Under the pieces are notes generated by a model. It saw only the letters and a list, made by a program, of their open reading frames with translations, was not told the DNA's origin and did no database searches. Source: Pinguiococcus pyrenoidosus (Eukaryota; Sar; Pinguiophyceae; Pinguiochrysidales; Pinguiochrysidaceae). From it: a DNA stretch of 64,000 nucleotides. Shown in pieces: positions 4,700 through 27,985 of the stretch. Each line of letters begins with the position of its first letter. The stretch's first letter is position 1. The position numbers and the translations under genes were made by a program. The stretch spans positions 52,539 to 116,538 of the forward strand of contig JAAMXY010000907.1 in the NCBI GenBank assembly GCA_019677205.1, given 5' to 3'.

Positions 4700-5294
4700 C
4701 GGCGGAGGCCCGTAGACTTGCACGCTGAGTTGGTCGATGACAGTCTGCGGTAGGATGGCGCCTCGCTGTTTGTCAGTCTTGCGAGAGAAGGGAGGCCTTC
4801 CCCTTTGTCTTCCTCAGCTTTGGTCGGGCTGTCAGCAAGAGCTGCTATTGAGCGCCCGGCCAGCCTCGCGCTCGCTGCCGCGGAACATCTGCTTTGCTCC
4901 GGGGCCACAGCACCGTCATCCATCTGCACTTCGCACCACGTGACGCATCCTCATTTTCACCCAACCTCCTAGGCGTCCTTGGCAAGAAGAAACGTTTTTC
5001 GCTCAGATCCGGCACGCCGCGCACGTTGGGCACGTCAGGCGAGAGACCCTGAAACTTCCGGATGATCCTCTTTCTGCTCTCGCGAAATTTGGAAGTTCTC
5101 GCAACTTCTGCTCTGGTCCTGGTGCAACACAAGCGGGTGCATCTCCCTCGGTCCCGCAGCGCCGGGGGCAGAGCTCGAGCAGAGGCAGAGGAGGTCTGCT
5201 TCGGGATTCTGAATCGCCATGAGCGTCGTGGCCGGAGGGGTCTTTAGCAGATGCGAACAGCTTCGACATCTCCGCCGCCACGTCATCTCCCATG
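4700..5294 (-). other. Possible small minus-strand gene, unresolved
   Basis: Two peptide-like stretches occur on the minus strand: IIRKFQGLSPDVPNVRGVPD near 5050 and TVIDQLSVQVYGPPPMGTAA near 4740. They could be joined by an intron that starts GTGCGA near 4935 and ends CTACCGCAG near 4755. A candidate ATG followed by GDDVAAEMSKLFASAKD lies at 5294, but it is in a different frame from the first stretch and would need another junction. I recognise no family. The stretch may instead be non-coding 5' flank of the CD36-like gene. Confidence 0.2.
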
Positions 5295-8200
5295 GATGCT
5301 GCCGGGACCGGCACCGGGAGACGTCGGCGTTCCCGCCGCCGACTCAACATCAGCAGCACCCAGTTCCGGCGTCTGGACCGGCAGGCCTCAGTTGCCTCCC
5401 GCACCAAAGCTACGGAAGAGACCAGTGACGTCGATGTGGCACCGGAGCTTCAGGAGCTGCAGAGGCAGGCGGACCTCTCGCGCGGCATGCGACGCAAGTG
5501 GGAGCGTCACTACTCAGGCAAAGCATCCATCTGTGCCTGGGCCGTGGTACTTCTGGGTTTGGTCGCTTTGTTCCCCGTCGGGCTCCTCTGGTCACAGGTG
5601 CTGTGGCCGGCCACTTTGGCAAGTCGCGTGCTGTTCGACGCCGTCCTGGACGCCCAGGACCAGATGGAGAACCTGGCCAGCTTCCGCAACTTCGAACATG
5701 AGGAGTGGGAGCCAGCCAGTTCAGTGCAGAGCTTCTACGTGTTCTCCGTGCTGAACCCGCGCGATGTCCTGCTGCTGGGCTTCCGACCCCACTTGCAAGA
5801 GTTGGGGCCATTTGCGTATGAGCGCCAGCTCTTCCGCTACGACATTCGCTTCTCTGCGGACGACTCCGCTCGGGTGACGTACAAGGAGTATCAGTACTTT
5901 GAGCCCGTGGTCGACGCCGGCGTGTGCGAAGAGCTGTACTTCAAAATGGACAAGGTGGGTGAGTATACGGAAGAGATGAGGGACTGCGAAGGCGGCGTCT
6001 GCCGCTGCCGCTCCGATGGCGAGAATGCCACGGTCCTCAACTCCAAGTTCTACGGCCTGGTGGAAGAGTATGGACCGGACGGGCTGCTGTCGCTGCTGGC
6101 CCAGACGGTGTTCAGCGAGGTGGAAGCGTCGCTCACGACCGGCTTCGTCGACAGCGTCAAAGCCTCGTTGATACCGGCGGCGATGCGGGATGTGTATCAG
6201 CATCGCAAGATGTACCAACTACCGCGGCTGCTGAGCATGGCGCAGCAGATCTTGAGTAGCCGAGGTGTCGACGTGGCGCCGGCGCTCTCGCGAGACCATC
6301 AAAGCGACCAGCTGCTGTGCCAGCCCATCCAGGTGCGAAGCCAGGACTTCTGCCCTTGGGGAACGCGGGCGTGGCTGGCGCAAGCGCAGGTGCGGAGAGG
6401 CCTGGACCAGACGTTGGAGTTGCACCCTCTGGAAAGCCAAGCGCTGCTGGCGGCGGACGCCGGCTTTCCCAGCTTCTTCGACGCCGGAGACGGAATCCAG
6501 CTTTGGATCTCCGCGGTGCATCACTACGAGGATCTGCTGAGCAACCACTTCAACCGCCACGCCACCTATGCCTCGACGGCCGTCACGAACCTGACCATGG
6601 CGTTCCAGGCACTCGGCCACTGTGTAGATGACGAGTGCGAGGCGAAGGTCTTTGGACTCAGCATGTACTTGGTGCAAGCATGGTTCCAGGCAAACTTCCT
6701 GGACGAATGGACCGTACAGGAGTACTTAACGCCGACGCCGGAGCTGCCCATCTGCGGTATCGATGGCATGCGCTGCGACTGGCAACCGTCGGCGGAGGTC
6801 CGCAGCGGCACGAGCGAGGAGATGGCGCGGCAGATCCTATCGCCGCAGATGCTCGAGGCGTCGGCCTTGTCCATCTACGATAGCGATAACTTCGACGACT
6901 TCGCTGACGTCCATCGTGTGTGTGAGATGCAGCGCGACGGCAGAGACACCGGCTGCGCCGAGATGCAGGAGGAAGTGCTGCAGAAGACGACGCTTCTACC
7001 GCAGCAACTGCGGAACGCCAACGCCGACATCGGTAACTTGGCAACGATGATCGACTACGAGACGCTGGGTTGCCTCTGGACGGCACACTTCTTCCAGACG
7101 CTGCGGCGGGAATCCACTTGGTACCAACACCAGATGGTCGTCTGGCTGAACACCAACGTGGGCGACGCCACCTTCGCCTTCAACGCTTCCAGCTTGGCAT
7201 ACATGGGATATGCGCAGTGGGCCAGCGGCGCCGTGACCATGGCGCTCTATGGAGTACCCAGCGTGCGCAACTTGCGGCGCCAAGGCGTCTGGCGCTTCGC
7301 ATCGCCGACCTATCAAGACGAGTTCCTGGAGTTCGGGGCCAAAGCGGCCAAGCGCGCCTTCCCGCATCTGCGGATGAGCGTCGCCGACGGCGCGCGCCTG
7401 CTCAAGGTGCTGGCCGAATTGAGCCAAGACGCCGATCTGTACCGTCGTCATGTTGTGAGAGCCTCTACCACCGCCGTCGGGGACGGCCAAAGCGTCGTCA
7501 ACGGCTTCGGGGCCGTGGGAGACCTGGCATTCGTGGAGGAGAATTCACAGGGAAACTTTACGGCGGAGCTTGGAACGCCGCCATTCCCGACGATCTACGA
7601 GGCCGTCGACTTTGTCTTGATGTCCGACCCGGACGAGTGCCTGGCGCTGGAGCGGATCTACGTCGAGTGCCTGAGAAGCATCCGCGACGGGAACAAGTAT
7701 CTCCAGAGATGCGACGCCTGGCAGACCAGCCTGTCCAACCCACTGGGCATCCAGTGCGACGCCGCGCAATGGGAGCTCAAGCCCCATCCGCAGCCGCTGG
7801 CCCGGGGCAACATTGTGGCGCAGCTCATGGAGGATCTGACGTATGCCTTGGTGTTTCTGGCAGAGCGCCTCTTCTGCCATGATCCGGTCAATTGCGACTA
7901 CTCGCGCGGTGGCCTCTTCACGACGCAGACGGTGCGGAATATCCTCTTCGACGCCTACGTCGATCCGGCGGTGCTCCGTGTCGTTGACACGGAGCTGCTC
8001 CCGCGGGATCTGCGACTGGCATGCGACCACAACGTATCCATGGGCGTCACCGATGAGTGCAAGAGGGTGCCGGACAACGAGTGCACGGACAGCGGTCTGC
8101 GGCTCGAGAAGCGCAACAGTGGCGAGGTGCTTTTCACCTTCTCGCGCCATGAGAATTCGGATGCTTGGTACGTACAGTGTCTTCATGTCTTAAAATAGAA

Positions 8201-9699
8201 GAGTGAGACGGAGGGGTGGGGGGGAGGGGGGGGGAGGGGAGACGCAAACGCAGACGCAGACACAGACGCGCAGACGCAGACACTTTCTCAGGCACAGCAG
8301 ATGACTTATCTTCTTCGTTCTTCTCCTTATCATGTTATCGTCAACTCCAGGTTTAGCAATGGATTTGAAGTACATCCATCGGACGGCGGCGTCGTTGCTG
8401 TCCGAAACGCCGCCGCGGCTCAGCTCGCGGGAGGACTTGACAGCAACATCACGTTCCAGAAGACGAAGAGCTGCGCGAGGTAATGCACGATGCATGCAAG
8501 CTTTCACAAGCAAGAGCGGACCACTCACTACAAAAGGACCTCGCAGCAAGTACCTGCATTCCAGAACCGCCGCGTTTCAAGCGTGCGACACCCAGGTGTT
8601 CACCGGGAGAAGCAGCATCTCACGCGTCCAGCACTTTAATTCCTTCAAGGGCAACGCCACGCTTCGCATTTCCTGCAATGGTCGCATCGATCTTTCAGCC
8701 GCGGACTTGAGCCCCCAAGGCCGACGCGGCGATGCTCTTTCCACCGGACTGCAGTTCCAACCTCTTCTCTGGGAGGGCTACGACGCCTTTCCATCCCCGT
8801 ATCTGTATCTGGGCCGTGATCAAGGTGAGCTGCCGGATGGAACGGATTCGGCCACCAAAAAGAGCCAGAAGGAGAAAAGACACAGAAGAGTCTAACAGCA
8901 GGCTGCGCGCACAGGGTCGGACTACATCGGCCCGGAGCAAGTCAACGTGCTGTATCCGGAGCATCTCTTGCGGATGGAGCTGCGGCGAGTGGCGCCGACC
9001 GTGGGGGACCCGCAGGCGGCCTTGGAGTATCCGGTGCGCTTTGCCTTCGAGCGCAATGCGAGTCGAGAGCTCTTCGTACGGCTTAACCGCTACCGCGCGT
9101 CGCGCGAGGGCTGGCTGAGGTACGACAGCATCGTTGGGTCGGATATGAAGGATACTTACGGGATGCCGCACGGCGTTCCCATTGGCATGGCGCCCACCTC
9201 TGCGCTGACGGGGATGAGCACGTTCGTCTCGAATGCCCACCTGTTTGGGAACGAAGAGTGGGGCGGCGACGAGGCCGACGAGCTTGTGGGTCTACGCCCG
9301 GAAGAGCGCCTGCACAACACCTTCGTTGACGTGGAACCGGTGTCGGGAAGGCCCTTTCGGTCGGCGAAGCGCCACCAGCTGAACGTGCGAGTGGAGCGCA
9401 GCTCGTTGTTCCCGAAGCTGATGTCCGCGCGCTGCGAAGTGCCGACACGCGAGTTCAGCCCGCTCGGCTTCGGCTGCTTCATGTACGTCCCGGTGTACTG
9501 GATCGATGACTCGGTGGTGTACGACCGTCCCCGGGTGCGTGAGCATGTTGTGCAGTATCAAGAGGAACCTGAACGGGTCGCGCTGCTTGTGCTCCTGTGC
9601 CTCACGGTCGGCCTGGCGTCCCTAGCCGCCGGCTGCGGCGTCCTGCTGGTGGATAGGGTGAGAGAGAGGAGGTTTCGCAGCAAGATCTACGTCGATTGA
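5292..9699 (+). CDS. CD36/LIMP-2-like scavenger receptor, very large
   Basis: Four exons: 5292..8167, 8351..8479, 8565..8824 and 8915..9699, giving 1,349 residues; all junctions are GT-AG with matching phase. The topology is that of CD36: a basic cytosolic N-tail, a signal-anchor (about 78-100), a long ectodomain, a second membrane helix (about 1310-1334) and a short basic tail. Family text includes FYVFSVLNPRDVLLLGFRP after the first helix and, near the end, GMPHGVPIGMAP, THE-LFGNEEW-like region, GLRPEERLHNTFVDVEP and SGRPF. Animal CD36, SR-BI and LIMP-2 bind lipoproteins, lipids or enzymes at the surface or lysosome; the ligand here is unknown. It is more than twice the usual ~480 residues, with extra Cys-rich segments in the middle. 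The start is the first ATG of the open frame. Confidence 0.85.
8202..8282. repeat. G-run and CAGACG repeat in CD36-like intron 1
   Basis: Intron 1 of the CD36-like gene (8168..8350) holds several G-runs of up to nine on the coding strand, followed by imperfect copies of ACGCAGAC. The G-runs could form a quadruplex in the pre-mRNA; this is an inference from composition only. Confidence 0.6.
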
Positions 9700-10311: not shown

Positions 10312-11376
10312 TCACGCCACGTCCTTGGTACTGGGCGTGGGAAGTTCGACTATCTTGGCCGCATCGTCGCCGACCACTTCGAGCGAGTCGCTCAGGAATC
10401 GCTTGGGCGCGACCCCAACCTCCGCCGACGGCGGCAGCTTCGGCGACAGGGCCTCGACCTCCTTGAGCTCGCTGGCGTCCTCTGAGTCTGTATCCATGAT
10501 CGCCGCTGACATTCTCACGTGCTCGTGGGTGACGCCAGCCCTTCCCAAGCTCTGGCGAGCTGCTGCGCCGACTTGGGGGACGGCGTCCTCCTTGTTGCTC
10601 TCATCCCGCTGCGTGCCCGGCTCGTACAAGAACGGGTTTGGCAGATCGCTACTGGTTCCGTTCTCCTCGACGCCAGGCAGTTCCTTCCCAGTGGTAACGA
10701 CTACTGCGGCAGACACCACTTCAGCGGCAGTCCCCACCTGGCCGGCGTCCACTACCACCTGATCCCCGTCACGGGCACCATCGGCTTTCTCCTCGCCCGG
10801 CTGCTTCCCTTCCTCACGGCTTGCATCTGTTCCCGGCATCGTCACGCTGTCCTTCGCTGGCGCAGCGGCTTTGGGCGTGCCGGCAATCAAGCCGGCCACG
10901 GCAGAGACGGCCACCACAGAAGCGGTTGCTGCCGCAGCTGCTTCTACCGCGGCTGCCGTCGGGCCTATGGCGATGGCGGCATCTTCAACATCGCCAGCCG
11001 CCGGCGTGCGCGCAGGTTTGGTTTGCTCGACCGCTTCGGCGGCGACGAACGCCTTCGATCCCGCACTTTGCCGCCGCGTCGATTCCTGCAGCTTTGCCTC
11101 TTCCGCTGCTGCTGCTTTTGCGTCGGGGACGGATGGTCTTTGTCCCGCCGTTGGCGGCGCTCTCGCTCCTGCTGCTTGGACTAGACCAGGTGCTGCAGCA
11201 GGTTCTGTAGGTTCCTCAAGGTCGTCGGGGGCACCAGAACTGCTGCGGGCTCCTCCTCGTACAAGCGCTGGGCCAGTCGACAGGGCCATGCTCTGACGCG
11301 TTGCGGCCGTCTCCGAAGCGGCGTCGGCGTCAGCGTCGGCGTCAGCACCAGCATCCGTGTCAGCATCTACGTCGGT

Positions 11377-13064: not shown

Positions 13065-13916
13065 CTGCCTCGCGCGCTCGGGTCACCAAAGTCCACGCGG
13101 GGTCTACAAGCAGGAAATCCGCCCCAGAAAACGAGGATGCGGCGCTCCCCAAGCCTCACCGAAGTCGCAAGATCCCTCAACCGCTCAAAACGGCGAAACT
13201 GCGCGCGGAAAAGCTGCTCAAGCGCGTCGCTTCGCCGGCCTCCGAGCTCGAAACGGGACTCGGGACCTCGAGAAAAGGTGGAGAGCGGCTCGGCGCGTTG
13301 GGATCTGGGCGCGCGCGCAGAACAGCGGTGGACTTCCGCGGCTGCAGCTGAACACCGAAACGAAACAGACTGCCAGCCTCTTCTCCGCCTGTGATTCGCG
13401 CAGCCGCGCAGAATGTACTTTGAAACTAGTAAAACTGACAAGCGCGTGGCTGTGAAAGCCGCGGTGATTGGATCGGAGGATGTACTTTCTCTTTCGCATT
13501 CTGCAAGGCTTGATCATAAAGCCGAATTGGCCCCGCAAGGAATTTGCCGCGCTGATCACGCGTATGATGCGGGAAGATGAAGACAGCTGGAAATCTCGAA
13601 ATCCAAGATGCTCGGGCGGCTTCGATTTCCACGGAAACGCACAGCACGGCCGCAAGGAAAAATTCATTGACCGCCAGCAGAGTTCCGAAACGAACTGGGT
13701 TGACCGGTCTGAATGTCTGAATCTCAGTGATCAACTCAACAACACAAGCCGCGATCTCCAGCATCTCCGGAGCCTTCCGGAGCGCGAGGCATGCGGATTC
13801 TGCGGCGTTCGGCGGAAAGAAGACGGCGTGTTCGGATTGGATCTTCGTGTTCTGCGGGTCTGTTTTCAATATCTAGAAGTTCAGATATCCGGGATAGAGA
13901 TGTGAATTCTGCTGAG
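13065..13916. other. Divergent intergenic region, RING and giant repeat genes
   Basis: About 850 nt between the starts of two divergent genes. The frame of the giant gene is open back to an ATG at 13791, but the composition there is less GC-rich than in the gene. Other frames are short and without motifs. I take it as promoter and 5' UTR sequence. Confidence 0.5.
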
Positions 13917-16900
13917 ATGAAATCATCAACGTACATCATCTTGCTCACGCTCTCCTATTCCCTTCCAAGAACTTTGTCGCTGACAGAATCCATCAGCTGT
14001 CCGGCACTTTTGGATTCCCGCAGACCCCCAAACGCGGCTTCGGTCATTCTCGCGCGCTCTGCTGCTCTGCGCTGCGCGCTTGTCCCAGGCAGCGGCCGGG
14101 CGTTTCTGGCGCCCATGGCGGCCGAGGCGAAGAGCGCCGGCGAGCACGCCCGCATGAACTCGGAGGAGCGCTACGCTTTGGAGCAGAAGACGTTGAGTTT
14201 GGGCCGCTTGGGACTTTGGGAAGCGTCGTCTCGCGACTTGGACGAAGACGACGAGGATGAGCGCTTTCTCAAGGGAGCGTCGACGCGCGTCCAGCGCGCC
14301 AAGCTCGACGGCACTGCGGACCAAAAGGACCTGGACGTCCATCTGCGGAGAGGCAGCTTCGAGACGCACCAGCTGCGGTTTGCCGAAGACGAAGGCCCCG
14401 CGCCACGGAAGTCGCCGGCGAGAGGCGCTGGCGACGCGCCACGAGCCCCGGATGCTCCCGTGGCGGCTGCGGCGCCGCGCTCGGCGCCGGACGCGCGCAG
14501 AGAGGTCCTCACCGCGCTCATGCGTTGGCGGGAGCACGCCCGGGCGCAGCCGTTTGATGCCATGGACGAGCTGCGCCGCCTGCAAGTGATGGTGTGGAGG
14601 GGCGGGCACACGCGGACGACGCTGGAGAGGGCCGTGTTCCGCTTGCACAACTTCTTCGCGCGCGGAGAGGGCGTCACGCTCACGCTGATCGACGGACGCG
14701 ACGAGAAGCGCTTCAAGTTCTACATCAAGGACATCCCGGGCCTGCGCGGCCTGGAGCTGGAGTGGGCCAAAAGGGGCCTTCTGAGGAGGGGGGCGCCGTG
14801 GAGGTTCTCGCTCATGGAGCTCGCCGATGTCCAGCTGATGACCGACGCGAGGGGCCAGTACCGCCTGGTGCGCGTCACCGGCCGGAAGCTGCTGCACAAC
14901 ACCAGGCTGCTGTACGACCAGCAGCTGGAGCCGCGCCAGGCGGGTCGGATGGACTCGGAGATGGATCGCAAGCGCGAGGCGCAGGGGCTGGTGTCCACCG
15001 TCTTCTTCCGCGCCGACACCGACGCGGCCGCCAAGATCCTGTACGACGGCTTCCGCGCGCTGCTCTTCGAGTTCCTCATCATCGCGTTCCCGCGCTCCGT
15101 GCGGCTCAACTACGACCATCTTCGGCTCACGTCGATCCTCGAGGAGGACGAGCAGTTCGCGGATCGCCTCTTCGCTGCGGACAGGAGGTTCCGCTACGAG
15201 AACATGCCCGGCGAGCAGGTGAAGGAGGGCGACGGCGACGGGGGCGCCAGTGACACGTCGTCGCAGTTCTGGAGGGAGACCTACCTCACGCTCCGTGACC
15301 AGGTCCTGGCGGAACCCTACGCCGGCGCCGGCGGCGCCGACGGCGCCGGTGGCGCCGGTGGCGGAGCCCCGCATGCGGAGCGCCAGCTGGAGACGACCAG
15401 CCGGATTCACCTCAGCCAGTTCCCCTTCCCCGGCGCGTTCGTGTACGCGGGCCCCAAGCTGGGCTTCACCAACTTCTCGCGGCAGGGCGAGCCCCCCGCG
15501 CACCCGTACTTTGGCCGGGCAGTGGGCACGGGACCGGATGGGCGGCCGATCTACCTGGCCGCCATGCCCCGGGTGCGCGATCCGCGCGCGCGGGCGGCCA
15601 GCGAGGATGGCACCATGCAGCTGCTCGGGGCCAGCACCGCGGGCGAACCCCTGCTGGTGTCCCCCTACACCGGCTCGCTCTTCCAGCTCGACACCGACGG
15701 CAAGCCAAAGCTCGTGGAGGACGGGGAGTTCCACCGCGTCGTCGCCTTCGGGGCCGATGGTCGGCCCATCTACATCTCGGAATCCACCGAGCCTGCGGGA
15801 GAGCTAGAATCCAACACCGGGCCCATGCCGGCGCCGGCGCCGGTCGCCAACGAGCCCAAGCCAGCGCTGACGCTGTCGGAGGAGACCGTGTACGTCTTCG
15901 GGGAGACGTCGCCCTTCTTCAGCTTTGACGACAACGAGCGTCCCTTCTTCGTGGCTCCCGAGGACGTCCGAGAGCTGCCGCGCGTGCCTCGGGACAACTC
16001 CGCCTTCACGGCCGCGGTGACCAAGTATGGCCACGTCGTGGGGATGGACCCCGCCGGCCGGCCCGTCTTCCTCGCCAATTCGAGGCAGCACGGCGACGAG
16101 CAGCTGCGGGCCGAGTTCCTCGACAATGAGAAGGGCGGCGCCAATCTGGTCGGCATCAACGAGGTCGGGGAGGCCATCTACGTGCTGAACGGATCCTCGT
16201 CCGTTGTCAAGATCAATACGGAAGGCAATCCCGTCTTCGTTCGGCCGCGGGACCTCCACACCACCATTGCCGTCGGCGCGGATGGCGAGCCCATCTACAT
16301 CAGCGACCTTGCCGAGGGGGACGACGCGCTGGTTGGGCCGGACGGCGGCCGGATCGAGAAGAAGGAGGGCCAGCTGCGCATTCCCGGATTCGGGGAGAAT
16401 GGCCACCCCCTCTACGTGTTTGGGTTGCCGACGCCGGTGTTCAGCATGACCCCGTCCGGCCCGGCCTTCCTTGCCGAGGAGCACCTCGCCCCGATGGAGC
16501 TGTCGCACTTCAGATCGCGGGAGCTGCGGAGCGCCAGGACCTTCGGCTTTGGCGATCCCGTGGGCAAGGACGCGCAGGGGAACTTTGCGTTCCTCGCGGA
16601 GAACTCCCAGCACGGCCTGAAGAACCCGGCCCAGGAACTGTCGGATGATGCGGCGAATGCGCAGCTGATCGGCATCAGTCCGGAGGGAGAGCTGCTCTAC
16701 CTGACCGAGGGCTCCGGCTCCATCATTCGCATCGACGCGGACGGCAACCCCGCCTTCGTGGACGCGTCCGTGTACAACACGATGGTCGGCATCGGACTGG
16801 ACAGCAAGCCCATCTACATCACCACCGAGCTCTACGGCTCGGAGCAGATCGAGGCGGACGGCACGTTCGTCCCGACGCCCGAGCAGCCGAACTGCTTCGT

Positions 16901-19443
16901 GGGAGCCGGTCCCGCTGGCGAGCCCCTCTACGTCTTCGGCCTCCCGGGGCCATACTTCCACATGGGCAAGACCGGCCGGCCCGTCTTCATCGACGCCGAC
17001 GAAGTCCAGCCCCTCGACAACGCGGCTGCGACAGGCATCAAGCGAAGAGTCAGCGACCTCTTCGGCGCCGAGGTCGGCGTGGACAGCAACGGCGACCCCG
17101 TCTTCTCCGCCAGCAGGACGTACCACGGCCTGAAGAAGTCGCCGCTGGAGCTCGAGGAAGCGGCCTCGAACGCCAGGCTTGTGGGCATCACGACGGAGGG
17201 AGACGCCATATACCTGACCAAGGGCTCGGGCATGCTGGTCAAGCTGCTTCCCTCCGGGGAGCTCAAGGAGATCGGGCCGGCCGACTACAACAAGTTCATC
17301 GGGCTCGGCATCGACGGCACGCCCATCTATCTGTCGGAGAATGCCGCCGGCCTCCCGAAGATCATGCGCAATGGGACCGAGATGGACGTCCCCGCGGACA
17401 GCAGCCGGATGATCGCGGCTGGTCCCTTCGGTGGGCCCGTCTTCCTCTTCGGCGCCCCCGGGCGATACTTCGCGCTGGGCACGGGAGGGACGCCAATCTT
17501 CTGCCCGGCGGATCAGCCCCGGCAGTTGGTGGGGCAGAAGCCGCCCAAGCATGCCCGCTTCGGCGAGGCCGTCGCGCAGGACGCCCAGGGCAGGTTCCTG
17601 TACCTCGCGGCCAGTGGCCGTCACAGCAAGTTCATGAACCAGGCCGGCAAGCTGAAGGCGCTGGACATCGCATCCGGAAACGCGATGCTGGTCGGCGTGG
17701 GAACGAACAACGATGCGATCTACATGACGCGCGACGCCGGCCTGTTCGTGAAGCTGGACAAGGAGGGCGGTCCGCAGATCATCGGCGAGGAGGAGATGCA
17801 TCGCATGATCGCGACGGGCGTCGATGGCAAGCCCGTGTACATCTCCCGAAGCGCGGATGGCGCGCCCGAGATCCTCGTGAACGGGCAGATGGTCCCGACG
17901 CCCTCCGATGTGCGCTGTCGCCTCGGGTCGGGGCCGGACGGAGAGCCGCGGTACCTGCACGGCCTCGTCACGGAGTACTTCAGCTTGGACTCTCGGGGGC
18001 TGCCGATCTTCCTGCCCCCCGAAGAGGTGGTGCCGCTCAACGAGCTCACGCAGCAGGAAGAAGACGAGGTGCTCGCTCGAGCAAGACGCGACCACGTGCG
18101 GAACATGATGCAGAATGCGGGAAGGCAGAACCCGAACGCTGGCAAGATGCCCGTCGGTGTCGGGAAGGATGGACAGCTGGTGTACGGCACTGCCGCTGCG
18201 CGCCAAGCGTCGCAAGCGCCTCCCGAGGACGGCGGACCGGTGCTCAAGACGGAGGATTCCTTCGACTACTACGACTTCGACTACAGCGAGTTCGTGCGGC
18301 CGAACGTGCCGGTGCTGTCGCAGTTCTACCAGTTCAAGGGGAGCACGAAGGACTTCGGCGGACGCCGGAAGGCGGATCGCGGGGATACTTGGTGGTGGAA
18401 CACGCACGGCACGGCGTCCGACCAGCCGCGGCTGGAGCCGCAGAAGCCGTCTCATCGCCACAAGCGGAGCGACTCCTGGTGGTTCAAGCGGCGCGGCCAC
18501 ACGCAGACGGAGGAGAGGAAGCAAGCCCCCGCCCCTCCGAAGCGAGAGCCGGGGAAGCTGTCGGCGAGCGTGCGGGAGAAGTTCAGCCGTGGCGGGACGC
18601 CCGGGGCCAAGCAGAACCTGTGGCCTTTCTTCGCGGCGATGGGCGTGTCGCGGAAGAAGCTAGACGAGAAGGAAGAAGAGCCGGTCAGGAAGCCGAAGGT
18701 CCCCATCTTCGCAGACGTGCCGCAGGAGCAGGAGCCCGAGATGCAGCAGATCGGCACCGACGACTTCAAGAGCGTGCGATCGGCCTGGGAGCATCGCGCC
18801 AAGTCGGAGAGGGAAAGGCGGTCCAAGCCCCAGCCAAGGACCCGGCGGGCGACGACGGCGCACGAGAGCGGATCGGCCATTTCGGCGGAGTTCCGACGAG
18901 CCTCGAGCTACGAATCCCGCCAGGAGCCGGAAAACATGGCACAGGTATGCGTGAAAGGCGAGGATCGGTCGTTGCCTTTCAACTTGCGAGATGTCGTGCG
19001 GTTTGAAGTTTATACTGTGCATGTCTGATCCATGTCTGATCCATGTCTGACTCATTTCCTCGCCTTCCCTTTCCAGATGGAGGAAATGCTTCGACAGGAG
19101 AGTGTCCAGATGGAAGAAGAGGAGGAGGGCATGTCCGAGGAGCTCTTCGAGGCCTGCATTCGCTCAGGGATTTCCCCTTCCGTCCGCAGCGTGCTGGAAG
19201 AAAACGGCATTCGCGACCTGGAGACGCTGCAGCACATGTCTCTGGACACGCTCGGTGCGCTGCCTCTTCTCAGGTAACAAAAGAGGACACGATCTCGTCG
19301 CTGGTTGCATGCGCATGGGCGCGTTTCCTTCTCCAAATCCAGCAAGGTGCTCATCCGTGCTCTCTGTCCCTATCCCTGTCCCTTTCCGTAGCGCCGATCG
19401 GCAGCGGCTGTGGAACATGGCCCAGCGAAGTAGGCGCATGTAG
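13917..19443 (+). CDS. Giant protein with five ~170-residue repeats and a SAM-like tail
   Basis: Not recognised. Exons 13917..18944, 19077..19273 and 19392..19443 give about 1,758 residues. The start is uncertain: ATG at 13917 would give a hydrophobic signal-like leader, 14115 (MAAEAKSAGEH) a cytosolic start. Residues about 230-460 form a mixed domain with VFFRADTDAAAKILYDGF, which resembles the end of a PH-like fold. Five tandem repeats follow, each beginning VGxDxxGxP(V/I)(F/Y)L and ending in a variant of FGLPGPYFxMxxxGxPIF; spacings are 172, 174, 171 and 166 residues. Inside each unit the short motif G-x-P-(I/V)-(Y/F) recurs several times, as in beta-propeller blades. Then come a disordered Lys/Arg-rich stretch with repeated DTWWWN/DSWWFK motifs, a Glu-rich linker and a SAM-like helical end (LFEACIRSGISPSVRSVLEE). 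A structural or cytoskeletal scaffold is possible but not shown. Confidence 0.8.
15522..18040 (+). repeat. Five tandem ~515-nt coding repeats
   Basis: Unit starts, judged by the VG/VA of the leading motif, are at 15522, 16038, 16560, 17073 and 17571. Lengths of 516, 522, 513 and 498 nt are all multiples of three. Units are diverged in sequence, so this is an old protein-level repeat and not recent DNA amplification. Confidence 0.85.
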
Positions 19444-19735: not shown

Positions 19736-20371
19736 CTATCGACGCTCCGGCAGGAGCTTGAGCCACGACGCATACGCGGAATCTGCCTTGGCCATCTGCG
19801 TCTTGGCAGCCTCCACGTTCTTGCGCCCGATATCCAGATACGCAGCATTGATCGCTGCAAAGATGTCCTCCGGCAGCTGCGCGACCTCCTTGTACGTGAA
19901 GGTGCCGCCGGTGTAGTCGAACTTGGCGATGCCGTTGTCCCGCACCAAGATGTCCCCGCCCGAGAGGGTCTTGGCCACCTCGCGCATGCCCCCCTTGATG
20001 TTGCCCATGCTGAGTGCCAGCACGCTCTGCGCATCCCGAAGGTCCTTGGCCTTGCCCTTCTCCAGCGCCGCATTCACCGTGCTGGAGATTCGCTCGTACT
20101 CCCCGCAGACCTTGCGCTGCAGCTCCACCGCCCTGGCCTCGGCGTCGAACACCGCCTTCCCCGCCGTCTCCCCCGCCTCCGGGGTGCGTTGCGCATCCTG
20201 GATCTGCATCCTCGGCGCCGCGCCATAGGCGCCCAGCGCCGGGGTGACGCCCTGCAGGCCGAGGCCTGCCGAGAACGCCGCTCCCAGGGCCGCTCGGCGG
20301 CTCATGGGCGTCCAGCCTGCCGCCAGCACGGGCAGAGCGAGGGCGGCAAGGACATGCGGGACGCGAGACAT
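19736..20371 (-). CDS. Thylakoid-lumen PsbQ/Psb31-like PSII extrinsic protein
   Basis: Single exon, 211 residues from the ATG at 20371; an in-frame Met 15 codons upstream (20416) would put polar residues before the signal peptide, so I prefer the later start. The leader has three parts: an ER signal peptide ending AAGWTP, a very short transit region, and a twin-arginine signal (SRRAALGAAFSAG, Arg25-Arg26) with a lumenal cleavage site after TPALGA. This routes the protein through the complex plastid into the thylakoid lumen by the Tat pathway. The mature part of about 165 residues is helical and has a central DNGIAKFDYTGGTFTYKEV segment followed by two more helices, in keeping with a PsbQ/Psb31 four-helix bundle that stabilises the oxygen-evolving complex. 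The family call is inferred from size, targeting and pattern. Confidence 0.7.
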   Translation of the reverse strand: MSRVPHVLAALALPVLAAGWTPMSRRAALGAAFSAGLGLQGVTPALGAYGAAPRMQIQDAQRTPEAGETAGKAVFDAEARAVELQRKVCGEYERISSTVNAALEKGKAKDLRDAQSVLALSMGNIKGGMREVAKTLSGGDILVRDNGIAKFDYTGGTFTYKEVAQLPEDIFAAINAAYLDIGRKNVEAAKTQMAKADSAYASWLKLLPERR

Positions 20372-24643: not shown

Positions 24644-27600
24644 ATGAAAGCTTTGAAAGTCGCTGTGCTGATCTTCTGCACTCTCTTTGGATGGTCCCAG
24701 GCGTTCAAACCGCGCTGGTTGCCTCTGCGTGGCGGAGAGCGGCCATCTCCTCCTTCTGATGGCGGATCCGATGAGCAAGAGAGCCAGTTATTCGACAGAA
24801 GGATGGAAATCCTGCGGCTGGCCTTCCAGAAGCAGCCTATCTCACTGGCGGAGAGACCCCTGTGTAAAGAAGACTTTTCGATCATATGCAACGGGATTCT
24901 CAGGGCCTTGGCAGGGACCTCACAGCAGAAGCTGGAGCCGGAGGGGCGTCAGAACTCTGTCGTCTTTGTTGAGATCGCGCTGAAGCGCCTTGAGGAGTTT
25001 CGGAGCGATGCGGAGTGGTACCTAGAGACGAAGATCAGTCTCTACTCGACACTTGCATTCGCGAAAAGGCTAGCGGAGGACAAGCACGGGGCGCTCGAGT
25101 GCTTGGAGAAGGCGTTGGCGCTCTCCAAGGAAGGCGACCTCATCCATCACGAACGGGCGGGCCTGTTTAATCTTGGCCAAGCCCACTCGGCCTTGGGCGA
25201 TCATCAACGTGCGATCGAGTATCTAGAAGAAAGCATCGTCGTCGAGAGAAAGTCCGGAGTAATTCTCACCGAGCCGACCACCTGGCATGAAATCGGAAGG
25301 CAGTACATGCAGATCGGAAACCTGCCCCGTGCCGTGGAGACCTTCAAGGAGAGTCTTGAGAAGCATGATCAGCTAATCGATCAAGAGGAAGAAGCTGAGG
25401 TACTGCGTGCGCGCAAAGAAAGGAAAGCCGAGACTTATGAGGAGCTGGCGACGGTGTATCGGCAGATGGAAGACGCTCGGAATGAGCTGGAAAGCTCGGA
25501 AGCAAGCCTTGCAATCCGCAGGCAGATCACACTGGGCAATCCTACTACTTTAGGTCTGAATCTGTTTGCCATCGGGGACTGCCTTAGGCGCTTGCAAGAG
25601 CCACACCGAGCGCTTCAGTACTTCGAGGAGAGCAAACGGGCGTTCGAGGCAAGGAACGTGTCCGAACCAACCATCACTGTGCTTGAAGCGATGGCAGATA
25701 CCTACCAAGGCCTTGGAGACGCACAGGCTGTAAAGAGGTGTCTGAAGCAGGCTTTGATGCTATCCAGGGAGCTTGGCAACGCAGAGAAAGAGTTCAAGGC
25801 GCTTGGCTCCCTTGGAGGCCTTTACATCGGAGAGCTCAACTACCCTCGAGCCGTTGACCATCTCTCACAGGCCTTGCGTTGCGCAGAAGCCCTGGGCGAA
25901 GCCACCTTTGAAGATCTCTGGACAACAAGATTGCTCATCGGGCTTGGATCGGCCCTTCGAAGGACGGGGCAGGCGACGAAGGCTATTCCGTGCCTCGAAG
26001 AAGGCCTACGTCGCCTGGAAAGCATAGAAAGCACAGAAGCCCGAGAACCGAGCCTTGATCCGGAGACGTTGCGGAAGCCAGCTGTGCTTGAGCTTGTGGA
26101 GGCGCAGCTTGAGCGAGGTGGTGCTGACACGGCGCTTCTCACGGCCGACCACTGGCGCGTGGCTGCAGAAGGACGGTCGACTTCGCAGTCGTCCGTCCAG
26201 TCAGTATCGGACCTGATGTCCTTGAAGAAGCATGCGGGAGACACCAACAGTGTCATCATCTACATCGCGATGGGCTGGGAAGGCGCGGTGAACCTGTTCG
26301 TCATTCGAAACGAAGCAGCAGAAGAGAGGGGATTCGTCGCGGAGCACCGCGTGTCCCGTGTACATGAGGAGGACAGCGGCGATACTACTGGGCCGGACAC
26401 GATCACGCAGGGCTTTCTGCGGCAGGCGTACCGAAGCGTGGTTGAGCCAATCCAAGATCTGATCAAGGGCGCATCAAGCCTGGTGTTCGTGGTTGATACA
26501 GAATCTGGGATCTCTGCTCTCCCGTTCGCGGCCTTGCGAGCCCCAGACGGCCGGCATCTGATACAAGACTACAGCGTTTCCGTCGCGCCGTCCTTGAAAT
26601 TCCTCTCGGAACGTATCCAGAGGTCCGAATCCGAACCTTATGCCTTTGATGCTCGATCCAGTGTCGTTGTCGGCAATCCTACATACACGGGCTGGCGCCG
26701 AGAGCTGCCGGACACGGGTGATCTTCTTCTCCTCGGGACGAAGGTACTGATCGTTCCTGAGAGCGCCGACCAGAACGATGCAGTGCCGCAAGTGGGCAAC
26801 GCTGATGGCTTCATCACGGCAGCCCCTGACCAGCATGGTCGATATGGGGTGACCATGCGTCGTTGGGACGCTGTGCTGGAAGGTGGATTCTTTGTGAGAC
26901 ACGCGGGGAAGTGGATGCGCGCGCGGCTTCCTTCGCCGCCAGAGGGAGATTCGACGCGCCCTGATTCAGTGTACATCGAGGAGCTTGGCGAAGGCTTGAC
27001 AGTCGTCCGCGACGACTGGCACCCGCACTATGTGGCAGGGCAAGCGGTGGCAGTTCTGGACGAGGCTGCGACAGAATACGTCTTTGACAAGAAGACGAGG
27101 CGCAAACGGGAAGGATTCGTAGTGGGCGAGGCTCTGGACGAGGAGGGCCGCTACGAGGTTGAGCTGAAGGCGTCTGGCGAGAGGCGCAAGGTCCCAGCAA
27201 GACAGCTCGTTCCCCGGAAGCTGATCGAGCCGCAGAAGCTCCTGCATTTCGCATCGAGTCCCTTGGAAGCACTGCCACATTCCGAGGCGGAGGCGCGGGA
27301 AGTCGCAAGGATTCTCGGCGTTGATGACTCTCACGTGCTTGCCGGCGATGCGGCGACCCTTGAAGGCGTGGTGAAGCAGCTACCGAAGGCGACGGGGGTG
27401 ATCCATCTTGCGGCTCGTGGTGTCACAGGTACGCTGGCGTTGGGGCGAGGAAGCGTCGCCGCGTGCGTTTCCTCAGCCTGCTTGCTCAGAGCCAGCGCGC
27501 ATTTGCCAACTTTCCTCCTTTCGATTTTCGCAGATCCGCAGGTGAAGGCCCGGAGCGGCATTGCACTCGGCGGGAGCTCGCAAGCCAACGCACTGCTCAC

Positions 27601-27985
27601 GGCCAAGAGGATCAGCAAGCTTGAGCTGTGTTCCAGACTTGTTGTGCTGACCGCCTTCGATGCGGGCACGGCTTATCGACCTGCCGACGGGCTGATGTCC
27701 GTCGCTCAGGGCCTGGTGGAGGCAGGTGCGGGCGCCGTGCTCACCAGCATCTGGCCCGGAGATCCAGAGGTCACCTGCGAGCTCGTGAAGAAGTTCTACA
27801 GCGTTTGGCTGGGCGAAGGGGCTCCAGAGAGCCTGAAGCCCCGGATGTCCACGGCGACGGCATGGAGGGAGACGATCTTGTGGTGGCTGGAGCATTGCGC
27901 GTCGGACGAGGAGAAGCACCGGTATCTGCATCCGCGGTATTGGGGACTCTTCCAGCTGCTCGACGACACTGCCTCGGCGAAGTAG
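24644..27985 (+). CDS. TPR protein with catalytically dead CHAT domain, plastid-type leader
   Basis: Exons 24644..27428 and 27534..27985, 1,078 residues. The leader CTLFGWSQAFKPRWLPLRG has Phe after the predicted signal cleavage, as in complex plastids. Residues about 130-480 hold roughly eight TPRs (for example AGLFNLGQAHSALGDHQRAI). The CHAT domain (caspase-like, Cys-His proteases) runs from about 537 to the end: LVFVVDTESGISALPFAALR, VVVGNP, LPHSEAEAREVARILG, then VIHLAARGVTDPQ across the splice and LVVLTAFDAGTAYRPADGLM. Family members have His-Gly and LSAC-[ND]-TG at these sites; here they read Arg-Gly (R925) and Phe (F970), so proteolysis should be lost. About 170 residues with two SH3-like segments (RYEVELKASGERRKVPA) are inserted between VVVGNP and the His-site half. 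The 105-nt intron has no in-frame stop, but removing it restores the CHAT text. Confidence 0.85.
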   Translation: MKALKVAVLIFCTLFGWSQAFKPRWLPLRGGERPSPPSDGGSDEQESQLFDRRMEILRLAFQKQPISLAERPLCKEDFSIICNGILRALAGTSQQKLEPEGRQNSVVFVEIALKRLEEFRSDAEWYLETKISLYSTLAFAKRLAEDKHGALECLEKALALSKEGDLIHHERAGLFNLGQAHSALGDHQRAIEYLEESIVVERKSGVILTEPTTWHEIGRQYMQIGNLPRAVETFKESLEKHDQLIDQEEEAEVLRARKERKAETYEELATVYRQMEDARNELESSEASLAIRRQITLGNPTTLGLNLFAIGDCLRRLQEPHRALQYFEESKRAFEARNVSEPTITVLEAMADTYQGLGDAQAVKRCLKQALMLSRELGNAEKEFKALGSLGGLYIGELNYPRAVDHLSQALRCAEALGEATFEDLWTTRLLIGLGSALRRTGQATKAIPCLEEGLRRLESIESTEAREPSLDPETLRKPAVLELVEAQLERGGADTALLTADHWRVAAEGRSTSQSSVQSVSDLMSLKKHAGDTNSVIIYIAMGWEGAVNLFVIRNEAAEERGFVAEHRVSRVHEEDSGDTTGPDTITQGFLRQAYRSVVEPIQDLIKGASSLVFVVDTESGISALPFAALRAPDGRHLIQDYSVSVAPSLKFLSERIQRSESEPYAFDARSSVVVGNPTYTGWRRELPDTGDLLLLGTKVLIVPESADQNDAVPQVGNADGFITAAPDQHGRYGVTMRRWDAVLEGGFFVRHAGKWMRARLPSPPEGDSTRPDSVYIEELGEGLTVVRDDWHPHYVAGQAVAVLDEAATEYVFDKKTRRKREGFVVGEALDEEGRYEVELKASGERRKVPARQLVPRKLIEPQKLLHFASSPLEALPHSEAEAREVARILGVDDSHVLAGDAATLEGVVKQLPKATGVIHLAARGVTGTLALGRGSVAACVSSACLLRASAHLPTFLLSIFADPQVKARSGIALGGSSQANALLTAKRISKLELCSRLVVLTAFDAGTAYRPADGLMSVAQGLVEAGAGAVLTSIWPGDPEVTCELVKKFYSVWLGEGAPESLKPRMSTATAWRETILWWLEHCASDEEKHRYLHPRYWGLFQLLDDTASAK

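Follow-up and report, generated by a model that had tools for sequence, protein, structure and literature searches.

Five tandem modules with putatively blade-like units make up the repeat array of an apparently lineage-restricted protein in the alga Pinguiococcus pyrenoidosus

Here, we analyzed a 64,000-nucleotide stretch of DNA (the window) from the marine ochrophyte alga Pinguiococcus pyrenoidosus (contig JAAMXY010000907.1, positions 52,539 to 116,538 of the forward strand), which carries a gene for a large repeat protein on its plus strand. The repeat array of this protein consists of five tandem modules of ~170 residues, together spanning 15504-18071, and each module comprises one conserved hairpin (a), linkers, and three units of ~39 residues (b, c, and d). 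The protein is restricted to its lineage as far as the searches reach, and repeat proteins of its kind are broadly known; the arrangement of its units may be new. As for its role, our tentative explanation, to which we give somewhat less than an even chance, is a lineage-restricted soluble multidomain scaffold with blade-like units, multivalent modules, a SAM-like joining end, a basic N-terminal anchor, and docking peptides.

The regularity of the array was evident from the best ungapped self-diagonal over residues 500-1390, which scored 319, whereas none of 100 shuffles exceeded 51. Self-diagonal and alignment placed module 1 at 15504-16025, module 2 at 16026-16550, module 3 at 16551-17063, and module 5 at 17562-18071. 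Module 4, at 17064-17561, was defined by the self-diagonal and by an AlphaFold 2 (AF2) model of 17046-17561. A first-pass annotation of this DNA had put repeat starts at 15522, 16038, 16560, 17073, and 17571, with periods of 172, 174, 171, and 166 residues; translation and alignments confirmed both, each start falling on the same motif of its module. The strand motif that it had described as recurring was found 14 times in the open frame, as G-x-P-[IVL]-[YF], and the conserved first hairpin of the module, a, was alignable between modules.

There are 15 units in all, each of 38 to 43 residues, with a common pattern: the first hairpin is of the type hhGhGxxGxPhYh, and the second ends in xGxPhFh. 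Each was assigned by unit division and by held-out profiles, trained on the other four modules, which found 15/15 units with 8.4 to 50.8 bits, versus a best shuffle score of at most 5.3 bits (100 shuffles per module). In module 1, the blade-like unit b (~39 residues) lies at 15615-15734, followed by c at 15735-15863 and a degenerate d at 15864-15980, which gave the lowest score (8.4 bits). The corresponding b, c, and d units lie at 16143-16259, 16260-16376, and 16377-16499 in module 2; at 16662-16778, 16779-16892, and 16893-17018 in module 3; at 17175-17291, 17292-17405, and 17406-17531 in module 4; and at 17685-17801, 17802-17915, and 17916-18041 in module 5, all on the plus strand.

Further units at the edges of the array were sought and rejected. 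The d profile found no additional d-type unit ahead of module 1, its only match in the first 545 residues scoring 0.1 bits, at 534-544 (99th percentile, 3.5; 200 shuffles). The candidate for a sixth hairpin a, downstream of module 5, scored 1.0 bits, at 1412-1423 (99th percentile, 3.6; 200 shuffles), and a high score arose only when that hairpin was itself inside the training set. Counting hairpin a as a fourth full unit was also discarded. The held-out profile gave 14.5 bits for a1, but 2.7 bits for a2 (module shuffle maximum, 0.9) and 2.8 bits for a4 (maximum, 4.3), the latter two matches falling on the second hairpin of the unit profile; a3 and a5 gave no positive match to it. Only a1 is clearly recognized by the unit profile.

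The AF2 model of module 4, built on an alignment of the five internal-repeat rows, was beta-rich, with a predicted local distance difference test score (pLDDT) of 78.5 and a predicted template modeling score (pTM) of 0.77. In this model, DSSP assigned four short strands per unit, which is consistent with a ~40-residue repeated unit as in a beta-propeller. Local resemblance of the units to propeller blades came from Foldseek and from the unit profile. When the model was searched with Foldseek, a check proposed by the first-pass annotation, propellers ranked best but superposed poorly: the template modeling score (TM) was at most 0.28 among the 50 matches listed, and the root mean square deviation was 10.9 to 13.0 Å in rows 1-6. 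The annotation had suggested five beta-propeller-like modules. A beta-rich character and blade-like local similarity were borne out. Beta-propellers are described as rings closed from four to twelve repeats (PMC6805158). Because a module, with three units plus a hairpin, amounts to roughly half a typical propeller and its model superposes poorly, five propeller modules are not supported as stated.

Conventional closed propellers could nevertheless form without regard to module borders, for example, as a pair of rings with seven or eight blades each. The 15 units and five hairpins would be enough for two rings, and the best Foldseek rows were Vgb and NHL propellers. However, units of the same class shared 33.1% identity across modules, versus 19.2% and 20.5% for other pairs, and since same-position units of different modules are more alike than other pairs, the three units, the hairpin, and the linkers were copied together as one block. 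Such copying points to the module as the folding unit rather than a ring of seven, and we regard closed rings of this kind as unlikely.

The blade-like units may instead run on across the modules, without closed rings, as one continuous and open superhelix or sheet, a long ruler or platform and not a set of separate domains. Weighing against this arrangement, which is likewise unlikely, the alignment behind the module model had five internal-repeat rows, the excised piece that was modeled may be mispacked without its neighbors, and an 882-residue single-sequence model was discarded as unusable (pLDDT, 38.5; pTM, 0.23). A more radical proposal, which we consider quite unlikely, is that the module represents a novel all-beta fold, or that the ~850-residue array forms an open superhelix unlike solved propellers, having arisen in pinguiophyte algae by block duplication and serving as a multivalent scaffold.

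The count of three complete units in each module would also suit a beta-trefoil. Units b, c, and d would then be the three parts of a single pseudo-threefold domain (~118 residues), with the hairpin and helices as linkers, and five such domains in tandem would give a binding array like those of fascin or lectins. The top matches of the three-unit profile were 4d8h (expectation value [E], 0.0037), which we take to be a symmetric trefoil design, and 3q7w (E, 0.01), a symmetric trefoil design by its title; 4d8h was also the top match of the module profile (E, 0.011). However, in the two best three-unit matches, only positions 8-31 of 119 were aligned, corresponding to strands 2-4 of the first unit, and fascin was the sole recognized trefoil among the 50 Foldseek matches listed (E, 0.71; probability, 0.01; TM, 0.10). 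We consider a trefoil-like module decidedly unlikely. The trefoil, open-array, and closed-ring arrangements are sub-readings that overlap with the scaffold explanation.

The gene comprises three exons at 14154-18944, 19077-19273, and 19392-19443, and both introns are GT-AG. Exon 2 encodes most of the SAM-like domain, as indicated by a SAM_2 match, and exon 3 encodes its end and the stop. The joined translation equals UniRef A0A7R9U983 (1,679 residues, P. pyrenoidosus) letter for letter, including 100% identity over the repeat region, and in a search of the 23.7-Mb assembly with the protein, the sole matches were the three exons. A0A7R9U983 is presumably a transcriptome-project entry and, if so, would speak for expression. 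Two papers mention this alga, one in connection with expressed genes (PMC4736243) and the other with its POR protein (PMC4337275), in passages that do not concern A0A7R9U983.

The annotated stretch, 13917-19443, begins ahead of the coding signal. Codon-usage log-odds, computed in 42-base windows with a coding table derived from the same gene, were negative in 7/7 windows of 13791-14084 and positive from 14085, with a later dip to about -2 in windows 14169 and 14211 (14169-14252). Because the coding signal begins only near 14085-14115, the start at 13917 is doubtful, along with the signal-like stretch that it would add. An ATG at 14154, as in A0A7R9U983, or the in-frame ATG at 14115 is likelier (length, 1,679 residues; 1,692 possible). 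If translation did begin at 13917, the protein might be plastid targeted or secreted: an open frame extends from 13791, and by eye the sequence downstream of 13917 has the look of a signal peptide. Against the negative log-odds up to 14084 and a UniRef protein that begins at 14154, we consider such targeting highly unlikely, and the signal peptide was dropped on the codon-usage signal. Two long antisense frames lie opposite the gene, at 15804-18524 (906 residues) and 13926-15734 (602 residues), both on the minus strand. They are probably shadows of its high GC content at third codon positions (0.88 over 14157-19025).

The flanking regions differ from the array in charge. The array (A0A7R9U983 residues 436-1310) has a net charge of -44, lacks Trp, and holds three of the protein's four Cys. 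The N-terminal basic region at 14472-15188 (residues 107-345) has a net charge of +10 and a strand/helix pattern that is PH-like by eye only; no Pfam family, PH included, was listed at an E of ≤10 for 14496-15350, and no homologue was found. The linker at 18084-18941 (residues 1311-1596; net charge, +14) is Trp-rich and basic, as the annotation had it, with two D-[ST]-W-W motifs, DTWWWN at 18384-18401 and DSWWFK at 18471-18488. Both ends are mildly acidic (residues 1-105, net -5; the SAM-like residues 1597-1679, net -8). Mean hydropathy over 19 residues peaks at 1.51, at residue 295.

In the scaffold explanation, the repeat array would serve as a multivalent platform whose module loops bind partner proteins, and the C-terminal SAM-like domain would join copies in self-assembly. 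The basic N-terminal region might anchor the protein to a membrane or a partner, and the two D-[ST]-W-W motifs might act as docking peptides. The protein would be cytosolic, and no catalytic site is proposed for it. We infer these steps of binding, self-assembly, anchoring, and docking from the layout of the protein.

A word-limited search of 5.8 billion proteins yielded no relative, and neither did collections of prokaryotes, viruses, phages, and plasmids, hardly any eukaryote DNA being covered. The earlier view that no named family applies was upheld: in the Pfam scan of the open frame, which largely suppresses weak matches above ~0.1, the only entries were DUF6296 (E, 0.019) and PirA-like (E, 0.093), and neither reached the cutoff. 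In the literature, no mention was found of A0A7R9U983 or, judged by the titles listed, of an algal protein of this kind with beta-propeller, SAM, or PH domains.

If the units are propeller blades, the fold would have grown in two steps, units to three and then the block to five, with no relative found; such growth, if true, would help to ask what blade number is needed before ring closure. An open arrangement would put the blade to a new use, whereas ordinary propellers or trefoils in series would add one more lineage-restricted scaffold.

Other genes of the window include a CD36-family gene at 5292-9696 (plus strand), which is apparently split by introns, with profile matches in two frames, to the front (42-109) and to the back (324-457). 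At 19739-20371 (minus strand) lies a small protein with a twin-arginine N terminus and, by eye, the look of a thylakoid-lumen precursor, with no Pfam match at an E of 0.01. A 1,113-residue protein with TPR repeats and a CHAT protease-like domain is encoded at 24644-27982 (plus strand).

Several known systems invite comparison. A SAM domain is a five-helix bundle. The SAM-like end named by the first-pass annotation is present but weak, the C-terminal 85 residues matching Pfam SAM_2 at an E of 0.0026, with 18.3 bits versus a cutoff of 20.5. WD40-type units carry a conserved Trp, which the array lacks, and neither WD40 nor another Trp-signature repeat family appeared in the Pfam scan. Residues 720-756 of PDB 9xqs_A (PHIKZ087) form a hairpin pair like unit c (domain, 14.8 bits; independent E, 0.2) and were matched by the module, unit, and three-unit profiles; this likeness is probably convergent. 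The designed beta-trefoils 4d8h and 3q7w likewise have three ~40-residue units, of which only strands 2-4 of one were matched here.

Among propellers, the top match of the unit profile was Scone (7awy, 7awz; E, 7.3e-6), a designed eight-bladed propeller, but Scone is artificial and symmetric, and its score adds up over weak repeats. The NHL propellers TRIM2 and TRIM71 occupied Foldseek rows 8, 9, and 11 for the module model, and the hairpin-pair unit with a DG turn, which we take to be the NHL family pattern, likewise occurs in the units of this protein. NHL was absent from the Pfam matches listed for the open frame, and the two NHL matches of the genome are both on contig C122, where the NHL-repeat protein at 10851-11327 (minus strand) has cysteine-rich, EGF-like-looking stretches downstream. 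Kinship to that protein was rejected, as the unit profile gave nothing against it, the same as the reversed control. For Vgb (virginiamycin B or streptogramin B lyase; 2z2n, 2z2o, and 2qc5), the genome gave no Vgb_lyase match, and the Pfam matches listed for the open frame included none. The Vgb propeller has seven blades. It held Foldseek rows 1-6 and, despite the poor superposition, is like the module in strand order and spacing over ~158 columns, whereas the module has three complete units per repeat.
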